Part shown: positions 4,953-12,013 of the stretch, in pieces | Numbering within the stretch: the first letter of the stretch is position 1 | Layout of the letters: every line of letters begins with the position of its first letter | Source of the DNA: Ectothiorhodospiraceae bacterium | GTDB taxonomy: Bacteria; Pseudomonadota; Gammaproteobacteria; Nitrococcales; Aquisalimonadaceae | DNA: 42,514 nucleotides | Assembly: GCA_007125985.1 (NCBI GenBank) | Contig: SLCE01000212.1 | Location: 1-42,514, forward strand | Direction of reading: 5' to 3' | The notes under the pieces: model-generated | What the model was told of the DNA's origin: nothing | Database searches by the model: none | What the model saw: only the letters and a program-made list of their open reading frames with translations | Program-made: the position numbers and the translations under genes

Positions 4953-6428
4953 TCAGCCGCCGGACGGGGCGCCGCCGTGCATCTGGCGCAACAGGTGCCT
5001 GCCGTACTCCGCTTGCGAATGCCCGGGAAAGCCGCGGGTCAGAGTTTCCAGATGCGGCTGGGCCCGCTCCGGATGGCGGGCCCGGAGATGTGCTTCCGCC
5101 ACGGCCACCAGCATGTCAGGTGTTTCCGGTAACCGGTTGCGCTGTGCCACCGCAAGCAGGCGTTCGGCCTCGGTCGTGGCGCCCTGTCGCGCGAGCAGAA
5201 TACCCAGGGACTGAATCAGACGACCATCGAAGCGGGCGCGCGGGCGGGCGCGCTGGGTGTAGTCCCGGAATGTATCCAGAACCAGCTGCGTGTCCGCCGG
5301 TGCGCGGGGTGTCATCGACAGAATCCGTCGGGCAACCCGGTGAAAGGCCTCTGACTGTGGTTGCAACTGAAGGCAGCGATAGAGACGGCGCAACAGGTCC
5401 GGATTATCCGGGTCCTGCTCCAGCAGGCGCTCCAGCATGGGGTGGGCCTGGTCGAACTCCAGTTCCCTCAGATGGGTGTCCACCTTGGCAAGCTGGGCCG
5501 CCGGGTCATCCTCGGGGCGTTGCTCGCGCACGTAGGCCCGGTTGATGCGCGATGGCCAGAACCGGACCAGCCCCATGGCGATCACTGCGCCCGCGCTGAG
5601 GCCGGCGGCATGGGCGGCGTAGTTGACGTTCCCGTCCGCATCCAGCCAGAACCAGGACAGCAGTTCGTAGCCCAGCCATACGGGTAACAACAGAATGGCC
5701 GGGGCCCGGGTGACATTGAAATACACCCAGATGAAGTAGAAAAACTGCACCCGCGTGCGGCCGAACAACACGCAATACATGCCCATCAGTGCAGCAATAG
5801 CGCCGGAGGCGCCCACGCCCGGTATGAAGCGCTCGCCGGCAACCACCAGATCCGCCGCCCCGGCCAGTACGCCGCCGAGGAGATAGGCCGACAGCATCAG
5901 GCGGCTGCCGATGGCCCCTTCCACCAGAAAGCCGATGGCCAGCAGGAACAGCATGTTGCCCAGCAGGTGAAACGGATCGCCATGGAGAAACATGTGGCTC
6001 AACAGGGTCAGCGGCTCGGCTTCGGCGGGTCGCAGCCCCCAGGCCCAGAATGTGACCTGGTTGAGTTTGTCATCCAGTGCCGCGCGCTTCTCCAACCACG
6101 CGGCGTGGTCCGGATTCTCCGGCGGCAGGGCGGTGCCATCGCGCACCCGCAGCATGAATTCCTCATCGGCGGTCAGATGCCAGAGCACCGCGGCTGCAGG
6201 TTGATCACGGACGGCCTCAACGTCCGCGCCGCTGCGTTCCTGCAGATATTGCTGCCGCTCCAACTCCATCAGGCCCGAGTCGGCGTAATAGGTGACGGCA
6301 TTATCCAGATGCTGCGGTTCACCGCTCTGGAACAGCAGGAAGGCCAGGATATTCGCCAGGATCAAGCCCAGGGTCACAACAGGCGGGCGTTTCCAGTCCG
6401 GCTTCCGGTCAAAGGGGATGAGCAGCAC
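4953..6428 (-). CDS. Rhomboid-family intramembrane serine protease with TPR-like C-terminus
   Basis: A six-helix rhomboid core contains HLLGN (His154, oxyanion Asn158), the catalytic serine in GVGASGA (Ser208) and the catalytic histidine in YAAHAAG (His273). It is therefore predicted to be an active protease cleaving membrane-helix substrates. An unusually long loop (about residues 35-135, acidic) sits between the first helix and HLLGN. After residue 290 a soluble helical tail of about 200 aa (VDTHLRELEFDQAHPML, LARQGATTEAERLLAVAQ) resembles TPR repeats. A GTG start at 6428 is chosen because AAGGA stands 7 nt upstream; the frame runs on to ATG codons near 6509, but that part overlaps a decayed gene remnant and lacks a ribosome-binding site. 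It appears monocistronic. Confidence 0.85.
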   Translation of the reverse strand: MLLIPFDRKPDWKRPPVVTLGLILANILAFLLFQSGEPQHLDNAVTYYADSGLMELERQQYLQERSGADVEAVRDQPAAAVLWHLTADEEFMLRVRDGTALPPENPDHAAWLEKRAALDDKLNQVTFWAWGLRPAEAEPLTLLSHMFLHGDPFHLLGNMLFLLAIGFLVEGAIGSRLMLSAYLLGGVLAGAADLVVAGERFIPGVGASGAIAALMGMYCVLFGRTRVQFFYFIWVYFNVTRAPAILLLPVWLGYELLSWFWLDADGNVNYAAHAAGLSAGAVIAMGLVRFWPSRINRAYVREQRPEDDPAAQLAKVDTHLRELEFDQAHPMLERLLEQDPDNPDLLRRLYRCLQLQPQSEAFHRVARRILSMTPRAPADTQLVLDTFRDYTQRARPRARFDGRLIQSLGILLARQGATTEAERLLAVAQRNRLPETPDMLVAVAEAHLRARHPERAQPHLETLTRGFPGHSQAEYGRHLLRQMHGGAPSGG

Positions 6429-6476
6429 GCTGTGGTCCTTTTTTCTGTGTTTGCTCGGTTGTGGTGGTTGGGGGGG

Positions 6477-6531
6477 TGTATCGCACACCGCCCGGTTCCG
6501 ACACATCATAGCCTTCCATGGCGGTCGCTCG
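6477..6531 (-). pseudogene. Remnant of a tup-regulator-like gene 3' end
   Basis: This 55-bp stretch aligns without gaps to 8768-8822, the 3' end of the regulator gene at 8760-9641, with 45 of 55 bases identical and an 18-base perfect core (6506-6523). The minus strand reads RATAMEGYDVSEPGGVRYT against RAVAMEGYELSELGNVRYNA in the intact gene, in the same frame. No homology is visible upstream of it (6532-6620) and there is no stop at the matching place. The best reading is a leftover of a second, related gene or a recombination footprint. With the intact copy it forms direct repeats on both sides of the phytochrome gene. Confidence 0.65.
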
Positions 6532-6623
6532 CGGGTGCCCGCAGACCTCTGTTGCTGACGCAGCTTGCTGGCTGGTGTTGAGGATCTTTGCGACGGAAGC
6601 GCTCCGGAAGCGAGCCGTTCTGA

Positions 6624-8675
6624 TCAGTCGGTTGCCAGCTCGACCCGGTTGCGTCCGGCATTTTTAGCGGCATAAAGGGCCTGGTCCGCGCGGGTCACAA
6701 ACTCGCGTTGTGCCTCTTTTCCGGCAGTGACGGCCACCCCGATACTGACGGTAACGGTACCGTAGGCGCCCAGATCCAGGTTTTCGATCATCTGCCGCAG
6801 TCGCTCTGCAAGGAGCCTGCTGTCGTCCAGGCTGGTTTCGGGCGCCAGCACGACGAATTCCTCTCCCCCCCAGCGGCCCACATGGTCGGTCGCACGCAGG
6901 CTGTTCCTGGCTGCCTCGGCGACCCGCACCAGCACGTCATCACCGGCGTCGTGACCGAAGGTGTCGTTGAAACGCTTAAAGTGGTCGATATCCAACATCA
7001 TCAGGCAACATTCACCGCCATAGCGTCGTGCCCGTTCGATTTCCTGGTTGATCTCCTCCCCGATGCGATAGCGATTCCATAGCCCGGTCAGATGATCATG
7101 GCTGGCCATTTGCGTGAGTTGCTCGTTCAGCCGCGAGATTTCGTTGGCCGCAACCACCGCGGCCACATCGCTGGCCAGGTCCTGGGCCGCCCGCATTTCC
7201 AACGTCGTCCAGGCCTCGCTACGCCCCCGTACTTCCTCCTCCCAGGACCGGAAGGAGGAGCGCGGGCTGATTCGCCCACCACTGCTTTCCAACCTTTTCT
7301 CCGGGTTGCCGGCCCAGACCCGCGTTTTGATCTTCTCGTGCCGGAACAGCAGCAACCAGGCGATTCGTGAGTGCCGGATGGGCAAGGGAGCGGCAAGCAG
7401 CCCCCCGATACTGGATGACACCCACCGGCCCAGCGGCGTCGCATCCAGCTTGCTGCTTGCCCAGGCCTGCCCATGGTTTGACTCGCGCGCCAGCCAGGCC
7501 AGGATCGACTCGAGATCCCCCTGGTCCGGGACTTCGCCTACAACTTCCAACCGTTCACCAACCGCCAGTACGGCGCCGCTGGCCCGGAACACTTTCAGCC
7601 ATCCCTTTCCATGCCGCTTCAGTAGTTCGGCGACCTGCCGGAATTCACCTTGCTTATCGAGCAGAAGGGCACGGCTGTCGTTGGCCCGGGCGATCAGCTC
7701 GGCCTGTTCATGCGCCTGGATCAGTTCCACCTGGAAGGAGGCTGATTGCGCCACGGCACGCAAAGCGTCCCGTAATGCTGGCGAGAGTATCATCGGCCTT
7801 TCGGCATGACAGGCCAGCAGCCCCCAAAGACGCCCTTTCACATGCAGGGCAATCGACATGGAGGCAACCACGCCCATGTTGGCCAGGTAGAGCCGGTGAA
7901 TCGGTGCAACGGCTCGAAGCACACCTTTTGACAGATCCAGCGGCGCATCATCTTCTGGATCTGTTTCCGGCACCAAGGCGACCGGATCGGCAGTGGCGTC
8001 CGGAATGTCACGGACCCGCTTGATGCTGTATAGCCGGCGCACCTGTTCGGGAATATCGCTGGCCGGAAAGTGATGCCCGAGATAGCTGTCAACCTGTTCG
8101 GTCCGACTCTCTGCAATGACACTCCCATTCCAGTCCTCGTCGAAACGGTAGACCATCACTCGGTCGTAGCCTGCCAGATCGCGGGTCAGTTCGGTCAGTT
8201 CATTCGCCAGAGTGTCCAGGGTGCGGATTCTGGAAAGCCGTGTCTGCCAGTCGGTGAGCACCGAGAACAGTGAGCGCTCGGGTTGGCCTTTAACGGGTTC
8301 GAACTCGAGCACCACGCGAGAACCGCTGTGATAGGGCAGCACCCGGAAACGACGAGCCCGCCCTCCAGTGCGGATCGAGAAAATCACCGCCCGAAACGGG
8401 GATTCATTGTCGATGACGTCACGAATGTGCTCCAGCCGCCGCGACCCCATCAGTTCCTCCGGTGAACCTGCCAGTACCTGGTCTGCAGTGATGCCCAGCA
8501 TGGCCTCGATATTGGCCGACACCTGATGGATACGTGTGAGCTGCGCATCGCAGCTGATCAGTACACCGTGGGGCTGAATGGCACCAGGGATATGCACCGG
8601 CTCGGTGGCGCAAGCGAGCAGAGCGGCCTCCAGTTCATCCGGCGAAAGCTCATGTTCGTTGCTCACCGATTTCAC
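6624..8675 (-). CDS. Bacteriophytochrome-type diguanylate cyclase (PAS-GAF-PHY-GGDEF)
   Basis: This predicted red/far-red photoreceptor makes c-di-GMP. The PAS domain starts with the biliverdin-binding cysteine (Cys22) in CATEPVHIPGAIQPHGV. The GAF domain has PASDIP (Asp207), His260 in VAPIH and His290 in LLACH, the same positions as in the Deinococcus phytochrome. The PHY tongue is recognisable (PRSSFRSW, about 490). The C-terminal GGDEF domain has GGEEF at 603-607 and an intact inhibitory RxxD site (RATD, 594-597), so an active, feedback-inhibited cyclase is expected. The length is 683 aa. The GTG start at 8675 is preceded by AGGGGG. No heme oxygenase (bphO) gene is adjacent, so biliverdin must come from elsewhere. 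It is flanked by a direct repeat of the neighbouring regulator gene's end, a possible sign of acquisition. Confidence 0.93.
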   Translation of the reverse strand: MKSVSNEHELSPDELEAALLACATEPVHIPGAIQPHGVLISCDAQLTRIHQVSANIEAMLGITADQVLAGSPEELMGSRRLEHIRDVIDNESPFRAVIFSIRTGGRARRFRVLPYHSGSRVVLEFEPVKGQPERSLFSVLTDWQTRLSRIRTLDTLANELTELTRDLAGYDRVMVYRFDEDWNGSVIAESRTEQVDSYLGHHFPASDIPEQVRRLYSIKRVRDIPDATADPVALVPETDPEDDAPLDLSKGVLRAVAPIHRLYLANMGVVASMSIALHVKGRLWGLLACHAERPMILSPALRDALRAVAQSASFQVELIQAHEQAELIARANDSRALLLDKQGEFRQVAELLKRHGKGWLKVFRASGAVLAVGERLEVVGEVPDQGDLESILAWLARESNHGQAWASSKLDATPLGRWVSSSIGGLLAAPLPIRHSRIAWLLLFRHEKIKTRVWAGNPEKRLESSGGRISPRSSFRSWEEEVRGRSEAWTTLEMRAAQDLASDVAAVVAANEISRLNEQLTQMASHDHLTGLWNRYRIGEEINQEIERARRYGGECCLMMLDIDHFKRFNDTFGHDAGDDVLVRVAEAARNSLRATDHVGRWGGEEFVVLAPETSLDDSRLLAERLRQMIENLDLGAYGTVTVSIGVAVTAGKEAQREFVTRADQALYAAKNAGRNRVELATD

Positions 8676-8700
8676 CCGTCACACCCCCTCACCGGCTGTT

Positions 8701-8720
8701 GTGCTTTATTCGACAAGCAC
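8701..8720. repeat. Inverted repeat in the phytochrome 5' region
   Basis: GTGCTT (8701-8706) and AAGCAC (8715-8720) are exact inverted repeats around TATTCGAC. They lie in the 84-bp gap between the regulator stop and the phytochrome start. The repeat could be a transcript-end hairpin of the regulator or an operator of the phytochrome gene; there is no U-run on the minus strand. Confidence 0.3.
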
Positions 8721-8759
8721 TTTACTCAGTGATGTCAGATGCTTGCGTATGATATCGGT

Positions 8760-9641
8760 TCAGGCGTTGTAACGCACGTTGCCCAGTTCTGACAGCTCAT
8801 AGCCTTCCATGGCGACCGCTCGCTGCCGAAAGCGTTCCGTGCGGGCGAAGGCCAGCAGGCGTTGTACCGGCGGCTCGAAGTAGCTGCGGCGGCGCAGCGC
8901 CAGATCGAAGTATTCTGTGTGCAGCGGGATGAAGTGCAGGCCGTGGCGGGTGGCTGAGGCGCGCACGCCCAGGCCCGCGTCGGCGCGCCCCTCGCGGACA
9001 TCCAGCGCCAGATCGTCCTCGCTCAGGGCCGGGTGGGGCAACAGTTGCAGCTTGCCCTGCTCGAGCCCGGCATCGGCCAGGAGCTGGCGGAACAGGGTGC
9101 TGGCTCCAGCCTCCGGTTGTCGGTTCGCGACCCGCAGCGGCTGGATTACCAGGTCATGCAGGCTGTTGATGCGGCGCGGATTGCCGGCGGCCACCAGCAG
9201 ACCTTGTTCCCGCCGGGCCCAATGAATGATCACCAGATCACGCATGCCGCTGAGCCCGAGCCGCGCCGGATCATTGTAGCTGTCGTCTTCCGCATGGCGC
9301 ACATGAATGCCGACCAGCATGGCCTGACCCGCCAGCAACCGCTGTACGCCGTCGCCGCTGCCGTGGCAGAGCTGGGCCAGTTCGCTGCCGGATTCCCGCA
9401 GTGCCCAGTCCAGCAGCGGGTCCTGGCTGCCGGCCAGTACCCAGGGGACTGGCCGACCGGCCTGTTCATCCCCTTCCAGGTGACTCATCAACCAGAGATC
9501 CACGGCCTGCTTCGGGAAGAGCAGCTTGCCGGTGATCTTGGTGCAGGGGATCAGACCCTGACGCACAAGATCATAGACCTTGCGTTCCCGCAGGCGCAGG
9601 TAGGCGGCGACTTCGGCGGTGGTCATCAGAGATGGATTCAT
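8760..9641 (-). CDS. Transcriptional regulator, excisionase-type HTH plus periplasmic-binding-like domain (probable tungstate/molybdate regulator)
   Basis: The N-terminus (residues 6-50, MTTAEVAAYLRLRERKVYDL) is an excisionase/MerR-like helix-turn-helix of the type that selects DNA. The rest (about 65-290) resembles the PBP-like substrate-binding domain also found in tungstate and molybdate binding proteins: LLVAAGNPRRI, QPEAGASTLFRQLL, ADAGLGVRASATRHGL. The end carries the family motif MEGYELSELGNVRY. It is divergent from tupBCA with a 92-bp shared promoter region, so it probably senses the transported oxyanion and controls tupBCA. The ligand is inferred from context only. The start at 9641 lacks a clear ribosome-binding site; an in-frame ATG five codons further on is an alternative. 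Confidence 0.8.
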   Translation of the reverse strand: MNPSLMTTAEVAAYLRLRERKVYDLVRQGLIPCTKITGKLLFPKQAVDLWLMSHLEGDEQAGRPVPWVLAGSQDPLLDWALRESGSELAQLCHGSGDGVQRLLAGQAMLVGIHVRHAEDDSYNDPARLGLSGMRDLVIIHWARREQGLLVAAGNPRRINSLHDLVIQPLRVANRQPEAGASTLFRQLLADAGLEQGKLQLLPHPALSEDDLALDVREGRADAGLGVRASATRHGLHFIPLHTEYFDLALRRRSYFEPPVQRLLAFARTERFRQRAVAMEGYELSELGNVRYNA

Positions 9642-9733
9642 GCGTTTTGCTGTTTTTGACTGTTTCTGTTACTGAGCTGGATGTTTTGTCTCACAGAATA
9701 GCGGCATGATGCTGAAAAAGAACAGGAGGAGTG
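9642..9733. promoter_or_regulatory. Divergent promoter/operator region between regulator and tupB
   Basis: This AT-richer gap contains CTGTTTTTGA-CTGTTTCTGTTA (about 9650-9671), three tandem CTGTT words that could be operator half-sites. TTGACT (9656-9661) could serve as a plus-strand -35, but I see no convincing -10 at the right distance. On the minus strand TATTCT could be a -10 for the regulator. AGGAGG at 9724-9729 is the tupB ribosome-binding site. The assignment rests on position more than on sequence. Confidence 0.4.
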
Positions 9734-10438
9734 ATGGAATCCGGTGAGAACGCCTTCCTGACCGCATTCCAGCTGATTGTCGGCATGGATCCGGTGTTGA
9801 CCGGGATCGTGCTGCTCTCCCTGCAGGTCAGCCTGTCTGCGGTGCTCATCGCCGCGCTCATCGGTCTGCCGCTGGGCGCGGCCATCGCCTTGTGGCGCTT
9901 TCCCGGCCGCGGGCTGCTGATCACGCTGCTCAATGCCTTTATGGGGTTGCCGCCGGTGGTGGCCGGGCTTCTGGTCTACCTCCTGCTTTCCCGGGCCGGC
10001 CCGCTGGGCCAGTTTGGCCTTCTGTTCACGCCCACAGCCATGGTGATTGCCCAGTGCCTGCTGGTGCTGCCCATCGTTGCTGCACTGACGCGACAGGTGG
10101 TGGAGGATCTCTGGAACGAGTACGCGGAGCAGTTGCAGTCTCTGGGCGCCTCCCGGTTACGCTCCATCCCCACCTTGCTCTGGGACGGCCGTATCAGCCT
10201 GGTGACAGCGGTATTGGCCGGTTTCGGCCGTGCCAGCGCTGAAGTGGGGGCGGTACTGATCGTGGGCGGGAATATCGATGGTGTCACCCGCGTGATGACC
10301 ACAGCCATTGCCCTGGAAACCAGCCGCGGTGACCTGCCGCTGGCCCTGGGGTTGGGACTGGTACTCATGCTGCTGGTGGCATTGGTCAACGGCGCCGCCT
10401 TCCTGATGGGGGAAGCGGCCAGGAGGCGGGCGGGATGA
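9734..10438 (+). CDS. tupB: Tungstate ABC transporter permease TupB
   Basis: The 234-aa inner-membrane permease has about five to six transmembrane helices and the ABC-permease EAA-type loop (EYAEQLQSLGASRLRSIPTL). The strings NAFMGLPPVVAGLLVYLLL and GRASAEVGAVLIVGGNI are typical of TupB/WtpB-like permeases. It forms the membrane channel for the binding protein TupA and the ATPase TupC encoded next to it. ATG at 9734 is chosen; a GTG at 9731 is almost on top of the AGGAGG site and is less likely. It overlaps tupC by 4 bp (ATGA), so the two are translationally coupled. Confidence 0.9.
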   Translation: MESGENAFLTAFQLIVGMDPVLTGIVLLSLQVSLSAVLIAALIGLPLGAAIALWRFPGRGLLITLLNAFMGLPPVVAGLLVYLLLSRAGPLGQFGLLFTPTAMVIAQCLLVLPIVAALTRQVVEDLWNEYAEQLQSLGASRLRSIPTLLWDGRISLVTAVLAGFGRASAEVGAVLIVGGNIDGVTRVMTTAIALETSRGDLPLALGLGLVLMLLVALVNGAAFLMGEAARRRAG

Positions 10439-11178
10439 GCCGGTTGGAACTGCCCGTGTCGTTGTTGCCGTTGGAACTGCGGGAGGTGGGCTTCCGCCAC
10501 GCTGACCAGAACCTGCTTGACGGAGTCACCCTGCGGCTGGGACGCGTGGGCAAGACGGTCATCATGGGACCGAACGGGGCGGGCAAGAGCCTTTTGATGC
10601 GGCTGTGTCATGGCCTGCTTCGCCCCACCAGCGGCTCCATTGTGTGGCACGGCGCGGGGCGTCTGGGGGTGCAGGCAGTGCAGCATCGGCAGGCCATGGT
10701 GTTCCAGCGCCCCGTGCTGCTGCGGCGCAGCGGCCGGGCCAACGTGGAATACGTCCTCGCACTGCGGGGCATGGGCCGCCGGGAGCGGCGCCGGCTAGCC
10801 GGAGAAGCGCTGGAGCGTTTCGGGCTGGCAGCCATCGGGGATCGTCCGGCCCGGGTGCTGTCCGGAGGCGAGCAGCAGCGGTTGGCCCTGGCGCGGGCCT
10901 GGGCGCTGCGCCCGGAAATCCTCTTTCTCGATGAACCCACATCGGCGCTGGACCCCGCCGCCACCAAGGCGGTGGAGGATGCGGTGCAGGCGTTTCACGA
11001 AGACGGTACCCGCATCGTCATGAGCAGTCACAATCTGGGCCAGGCCCGGCGACTGGCGGACGATGTGGTGTTCCTGTGTCGCGGGAGGCTGTTGGAGCAC
11101 ACCCCGGCCGAGCACTTCTTCACCGGGCCCGCCTCGGCGGAGGCCGCTGCCTTCCTGCGCGGTGATCTGGTCTGGTAA
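10435..11178 (+). CDS. tupC: Tungstate ABC transporter ATP-binding protein TupC
   Basis: The 247-aa ATPase powers tungstate import. It has Walker A MGPNGAGKSLL (about residue 44), a Q-loop in AMVFQRPVLLRR, signature LSGGEQQRLALARAW, Walker B EILFLDEPTSALD and the H-switch in MSSHNLGQ. It lies between the permease and binding-protein genes, overlapping tupB by 4 bp; a short gap separates it from tupA. Compared with ModC it lacks a C-terminal TOBE domain, which fits TupC. The substrate assignment depends on TupA and the operon. Confidence 0.9.
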   Translation: MSRLELPVSLLPLELREVGFRHADQNLLDGVTLRLGRVGKTVIMGPNGAGKSLLMRLCHGLLRPTSGSIVWHGAGRLGVQAVQHRQAMVFQRPVLLRRSGRANVEYVLALRGMGRRERRRLAGEALERFGLAAIGDRPARVLSGGEQQRLALARAWALRPEILFLDEPTSALDPAATKAVEDAVQAFHEDGTRIVMSSHNLGQARRLADDVVFLCRGRLLEHTPAEHFFTGPASAEAAAFLRGDLVW

Positions 11179-11203
11179 CACCCATGCTGGGAGGGGAACG
11201 ACG

Positions 11204-12013
11204 GTGATTCGGCGGATAAGACGACTGGTGCTGGGCCTGCTGTTGTTGGGACTGCCTGGAGGTGTTTCCGCCGCCGACCGCCACATCACGCTGGCGTCCA
11301 CCACGTCCACCGAGCAGTCCGGGCTGTTCGCCCACATCATTCCCGTGTTCCGGAACAGCACAGGCATTGACGTGCGGGTGGTCGCCGTGGGTACCGGCCA
11401 GGCTTTTGCCATCGCCCGCCGTGGTGACGCGGACGCCCTGCTGGTCCATGACCGGGACGGTGAGGACGAGTTTGTGGCCCGGGGCTATGGCCAGGAGCGC
11501 CAGGACGTGATGTACAACGACTTCATTCTGATCGGCCCGTCGCAGGATCCGGCGGCAGTGGCCGGGGCCGATAACATTGTCGACGCCCTGCAGCGTATCG
11601 CCGGGGCCAGGGTGCCGTTCGTCTCGCGCGGTGATGACAGCGGCACATACCGCGCGGAACGACGGATCTGGGAATTGGCGGGCATCTCACCCTCCGGCAG
11701 CTGGTACCGGGCGTTGGGAAGCGGTATGGGGCCGACACTGAATACCGCCGCGGGGATGGACGCCTATGTGTTGGCCGATCGCGGGACCTGGCTCAGCTTC
11801 GGTAACCGGCAGAACCTCACCGTTCTGTTCGAAGGCGACGAGACGCTGTTCAACCCCTATGGCAGTGTGCTGATCAATCCGGAGCGGCATCCGCATCTGA
11901 AGCACGACCTGGCAGAGATCTGGCACCGTTGGCTGATCTCCGACGAAGGCCAGGCGGCGATTGCGTCCTTCACGCTCAGGGGCGAGCCGGTGTTTTTCCC
12001 GAGCGGCCGTTGA
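11204..12013 (+). CDS. tupA: Tungstate-binding periplasmic protein TupA
   Basis: This secreted binding protein captures tungstate in the periplasm. A Sec signal peptide is seen at residues 1-23 (arginine-rich start, leucine core, GGVSA before ADRH), followed by ITLASTTSTEQSGL, the characteristic TupA oxyanion-binding start with its TTST stretch. Later RGDDSGTYRAE, AAGMDAYVLADRGTW and a C-terminal WLISDEGQAAIASF match the family. The length is 269 aa. The start is GTG at 11204, with GAGGGGAA about 6 nt upstream; the open frame upstream is inside tupC. High specificity for tungstate over molybdate is a property of characterised TupA proteins, not shown here. Confidence 0.92.
   Translation: MIRRIRRLVLGLLLLGLPGGVSAADRHITLASTTSTEQSGLFAHIIPVFRNSTGIDVRVVAVGTGQAFAIARRGDADALLVHDRDGEDEFVARGYGQERQDVMYNDFILIGPSQDPAAVAGADNIVDALQRIAGARVPFVSRGDDSGTYRAERRIWELAGISPSGSWYRALGSGMGPTLNTAAGMDAYVLADRGTWLSFGNRQNLTVLFEGDETLFNPYGSVLINPERHPHLKHDLAEIWHRWLISDEGQAAIASFTLRGEPVFFPSGR

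Follow-up and report, generated by a model that had tools for sequence, protein, structure and literature searches.

Genomic islands that use tyrosine recombinases integrate into the 3′ ends of genes and are bounded there by att direct repeats. The usual target duplications are far shorter than about 60 bp. In E. coli, single crossovers of circularised fragments produced partial duplications of the homologous end, 109–950 bp in length (PMC3240628). The phytochrome-activated diguanylate cyclases have spread largely by horizontal transfer (PMC9587094).

Here, we analysed a window of 42,514 nucleotides, the whole stretch of contig SLCE01000212.1 from Ectothiorhodospiraceae bacterium (genome G000). 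On its minus strand, a tup-type regulator gene is followed by a bacteriophytochrome-GGDEF gene and then by a rhomboid-TPR gene (Table 1). A remnant of the regulator 3′ end lies between the latter two. Taken as a whole, the locus is probably the product of an insertion of ~2.3 kb bringing the phytochrome, with ~60 bp of the regulator tail duplicated and the remnant left as a scar.

Table 1. Features of the regulator, phytochrome and rhomboid locus in window coordinates
Feature	Position	Strand	Remarks
Rhomboid-TPR protein	4953..6428	-	Pfam
Ancestral regulator-rhomboid spacer (putative), between remnant and rhomboid start	6429..6471	-	Resembles the G001 and G002 spacers
Remnant, last ~60 bp of tup regulator gene	6472..6531	-	Upstream of rhomboid gene as in relatives
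Phytochrome-remnant spacer	6532..6623	.	Unrelated to regulator; single copy in genome
Bacteriophytochrome diguanylate cyclase, PAS_2-GAF-PHY-GGDEF, 683 aa, inserted gene	6624..8675	-	Pfam
Regulator-phytochrome spacer	8676..8759	.	50% GC; single copy in genome
Intact copy, final 60 bp of working regulator's coding sequence	8763..8822	-
Tup-type regulator, HTH_17 and PBP_like, 293 aa	8760..9641	-	Pfam; adjoins tupB/C/A; collinear in relatives
tupB/C/A	9731-12013		Beside tup regulator

This arrangement resembles the att-type islands in that the insert has an intact gene 3′ end at one border and a displaced copy of that end at the other. Unlike them, it has no integrase, carries a single 2-kb gene and has repeats only 80% identical. 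It also resembles the homology-facilitated integration at E. coli lacZ, where foreign DNA sits at a homologous end and is flanked by the duplicated target-gene end, but those duplications are 109–950 bp and fresh whereas this one is ~60 bp and 20% diverged (PMC3240628). The inserted gene shares the PAS-GAF-PHY-GGDEF order with the PadC-type bacteriophytochromes.

The repeat is real. As an earlier note on this DNA had stated, positions 6477–6531 and 8768–8822 share 45 of 55 bases, have the same orientation and keep the frame (MEGYDVSEPGGVRY versus MEGYELSELGNVRY on the minus strand), and the phytochrome gene lies between them. It is 92 bp away from each copy. The ungapped local score is 26, while the maximum in 200 Markov shuffles is 17. 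A search of the whole genome with the remnant found only one other place, 8757–8823, with 79% identity over 67 bases (E 6.8e-10). The remnant and the intact tail make the best 60-mer pair (48/60), and the next best anywhere in the window reaches 32/60.

The shared stretch corresponds to roughly the final 60 bp of the regulator gene, and the regulator stop codon is lost from the remnant. Further upstream, 6532–6640 gives nothing above shuffles when compared with the regulator, and an 11-base match to G002 (GAGCGCTTCCG), considered as an extension of the remnant, is within chance. Thus, the remnant is a decayed regulator 3′ end as the note had read it, but not a second copy of the gene. A promoter and terminator scan over 6380–8850 gave nothing above shuffles. 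The remnant itself is most likely functionless.

The relatives compared are two congeners, G001 and G002, and G012 from another genus of the same family. In all three, the rhomboid gene comes immediately after the regulator, without the phytochrome (G001 C72:6603–7481 then 7537–9006; G002 C30; G012 C255), and the regulator end occurs in a single copy at the locus. The Znp-rimK-tupACB genes are collinear in the three and are on the other side of the regulator as in the window. None of the three genomes has a phytochrome photosensory match at E ≤ 1e-60.

The junction itself can be followed closely. In G001, the regulator ends in ...GYDIRKLGDVMYNA-stop and the rhomboid GTG comes about 50 bp on. 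In the window, the remnant and its spacer occupy the orthologous junction before the same rhomboid GTG, which opens VLLIPFDRK after an AAGGA ribosome-binding-like site; this start and the spacer upstream of it are conserved in G001 and G002. Because the relatives have the regulator and the rhomboid gene without the phytochrome and the remnant marks the same junction, the phytochrome was most likely gained there, between the regulator 3′ end and the rhomboid gene. With the repeat, the empty site and the remnant position all observed, we infer the direction to be gain rather than loss.

The ancestral state would have been an operon-like pair of the tup regulator and then the rhomboid gene. An insert of ~2.3 kb with the single bacteriophytochrome-GGDEF gene would have opened this pair in this lineage, with ~60 bp of the regulator 3′ end repeated directly at the two borders of the insert. 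The regulator-side copy would complete the working gene, and the rhomboid-side copy would be a scar at the original junction, decaying as non-coding DNA. The route was most likely homologous integration, either by a single crossover or one-ended, in which a linear or circularised fragment carried or copied the regulator tail; such integration can leave a 60-bp gene-end repeat at each border of the inserted DNA.

Other known routes were considered with the two direct repeats of the target gene end flanking the insert. No integrase is in the repeat-flanked element, the phytochrome being the sole ORF filling 6532–8767, so an integrase-driven genomic island was rejected. Insertion by an IS or a transposon was rejected as well because no transposase ORF is seen in the insert, the flanking spacers are single copy and a repeat of ~60 bp is too long. 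The single-copy spacers also dismiss a mobile-repeat origin for both of them.

A second example of such a repeat-flanked insertion was looked for and none was found. The finding is ordinary in kind and needs no new mechanism, while its polarity is unusually clear. The locus reads as a scar with a direction, left when a single gene was acquired; the empty site is seen in congeners and the repeat marks the junction. It may help in studying the entry of individual regulatory genes into operons when no mobile element is involved.

The two tails differ in ways that bear on which copy is which, in a comparison of 60 bp only where every count is small. The remnant has its best match in the local intact tail (48/60), followed by G002 (42/60), and ~30 further regulators from other species score lower. 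Over 60 columns, the grouping of the remnant with the intact tail rather than with G002 has a bootstrap value of 0.94, which is no more than suggestive. Hence, the idea that the remnant is closer to another species' regulator than to the local one went unsupported.

The remnant and the intact tail differ at 12 sites, split 4/4/4 over the codon positions, while the intact tail differs from G002 at 18 sites, 12 of them third positions. The even split fits one copy having been without coding constraint since the duplication. Together with the lost stop codon, it argues against the view in the earlier note that the remnant had diverged as a gene before its decay.

The copies differ by 20%, and dS between the window species and G002 is 0.7–0.8 for the regulator, tupB and rimK. 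The duplication would thus be younger than the split of these two species. It would also be so old that excision between the repeats is no longer favoured.

The main alternative concerns the origin of the tails. The intact tail has the unusual GYELS and the remnant has the common GYDVS; nearly all relatives have D there as the remnant does. The remnant also keeps the ancestral-looking base at about five sites. Relative to G002, the intact tail and the remnant have changed at four sites each, which is odd if drift was open to the remnant only. The residue difference and the ancestral-looking bases suit an exchange where a close relative's regulator tail came with the phytochrome and completes the working gene, leaving the remnant as the recipient's original tail.

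We regard this exchange as possible but rather unlikely. The copies are nearer to each other than to the nearest congener, the regulator has no mosaic breakpoint versus G002 and G001, and no regulator adjoins a phytochrome elsewhere among 54 genomes of the order. The missing breakpoint also counts against the preferred insertion. Insertion of the phytochrome with a relative's regulator tail had been proposed before; the gain part agrees with the empty sites, but a tail of a clearly different species is unsupported, the local copy being closest. A tail from a very close donor is possible.

The decay of a complete tandem duplicate, also proposed before, would have eroded a second regulator to its last 60 bp and let the phytochrome enter the gap. 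Decayed tup clusters do exist in the family, as G006 C193 (L062:764–1793) has a second one made up of tupA, a tupC scrap and a regulator reduced to its final 97 residues. But no relative has two regulator copies at this locus, no trace is left upstream of the 60 bp and more steps are needed. We therefore find this course improbable, and gain by insertion at the junction is preferred to it.

Still less probable is that the regulator-phytochrome-rhomboid order is old and that the congeners lost the phytochrome by a precise excision made possible by the direct repeats. A deletion between direct repeats would restore the G001 and G002 arrangement, and the heme oxygenase is also patchy. This course needs several independent losses, however, including one in the other genus (G012). 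Moreover, the phytochrome GC3 is atypical at 0.70, with all eleven neighbours measured at 0.78–0.83, and the phytochromes of G007 and G176, on contigs long enough to tell, are at other loci beside heme oxygenase genes.

It is highly doubtful that small single-gene circles use the ~60-bp regulator end as an attachment-like site and that the phytochrome is a mobile cassette restoring the gene end on entry. A chance match or an assembly artefact has next to no likelihood, despite the shortness of the segment and the draft state of the genome (248 contigs), given the genome-wide E value, the score far over the shuffles, the orthologous position and the 20% difference, which speaks against a mis-joined identical repeat.

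Some other features are seen at the junction. In the window, an ATG within the remnant lengthens the rhomboid ORF by 27 codons (6429–6509). Since a stop closes the extended frame in G001, translation more likely begins at the GTG at 6428. In G002 C30, the regulator-rhomboid spacer (L083:4805–5030) holds a ~205-bp repeat element with TA ends and ~30-bp terminal inverted repeats (GGGAAACGCTGACCTATTCCCATGG), placed directly at the regulator stop. With at most one mismatch allowed, its 18-base core has 24 occurrences in G002, three in G001 and two in G000. The G002 rhomboid gene (L083:5030–5960) seems shortened, with stretches absent near its start and in its TPR part.

The inserted gene encodes PAS_2, GAF, PHY and GGDEF domains in this order. 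Its translation has the biliverdin-binding N-terminal Cys (LLACATEPVHIPGAIQPHG), PASDIP and GGEEF, a GG[DE]EF motif. The protein is predicted to be a diguanylate cyclase controlled by red/far-red light, and light control of this kind is what we presume from the established knowledge of its family. Its best relatives are 46–48% identical and are found in G007, G006 and G176.

Searches of the order (54 genomes), the class (369 genomes) and the plasmid records turned up no phytochrome donor or intermediate, in a sampling that is thin near the window's genus; the plasmid records reach 36% at most. This negative result weighs against the insertion reading. Scanning named genomes with the regulator gave matches mostly in Halomonadaceae (59–69%), and their 6-kb flanks contain no phytochrome or rhomboid match.

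Among the family genomes examined, the three that bear a phytochrome (G000, G006 and G007) also encode a heme oxygenase. It was not found in G001, G002 and G012, all without a phytochrome and two of them only 86–88% complete. The phytochromes of G007 and G176 adjoin their heme oxygenase genes, the G176 neighbour being named by resemblance only, whereas the window phytochrome is apart from the heme oxygenase gene of its genome. The inserted phytochrome may depend on this heme oxygenase as its chromophore enzyme. The heme oxygenase gene is on another contig, C201 (L117:5496–6110), and adjoins an Old Yellow Enzyme-like gene, so named from its translation.
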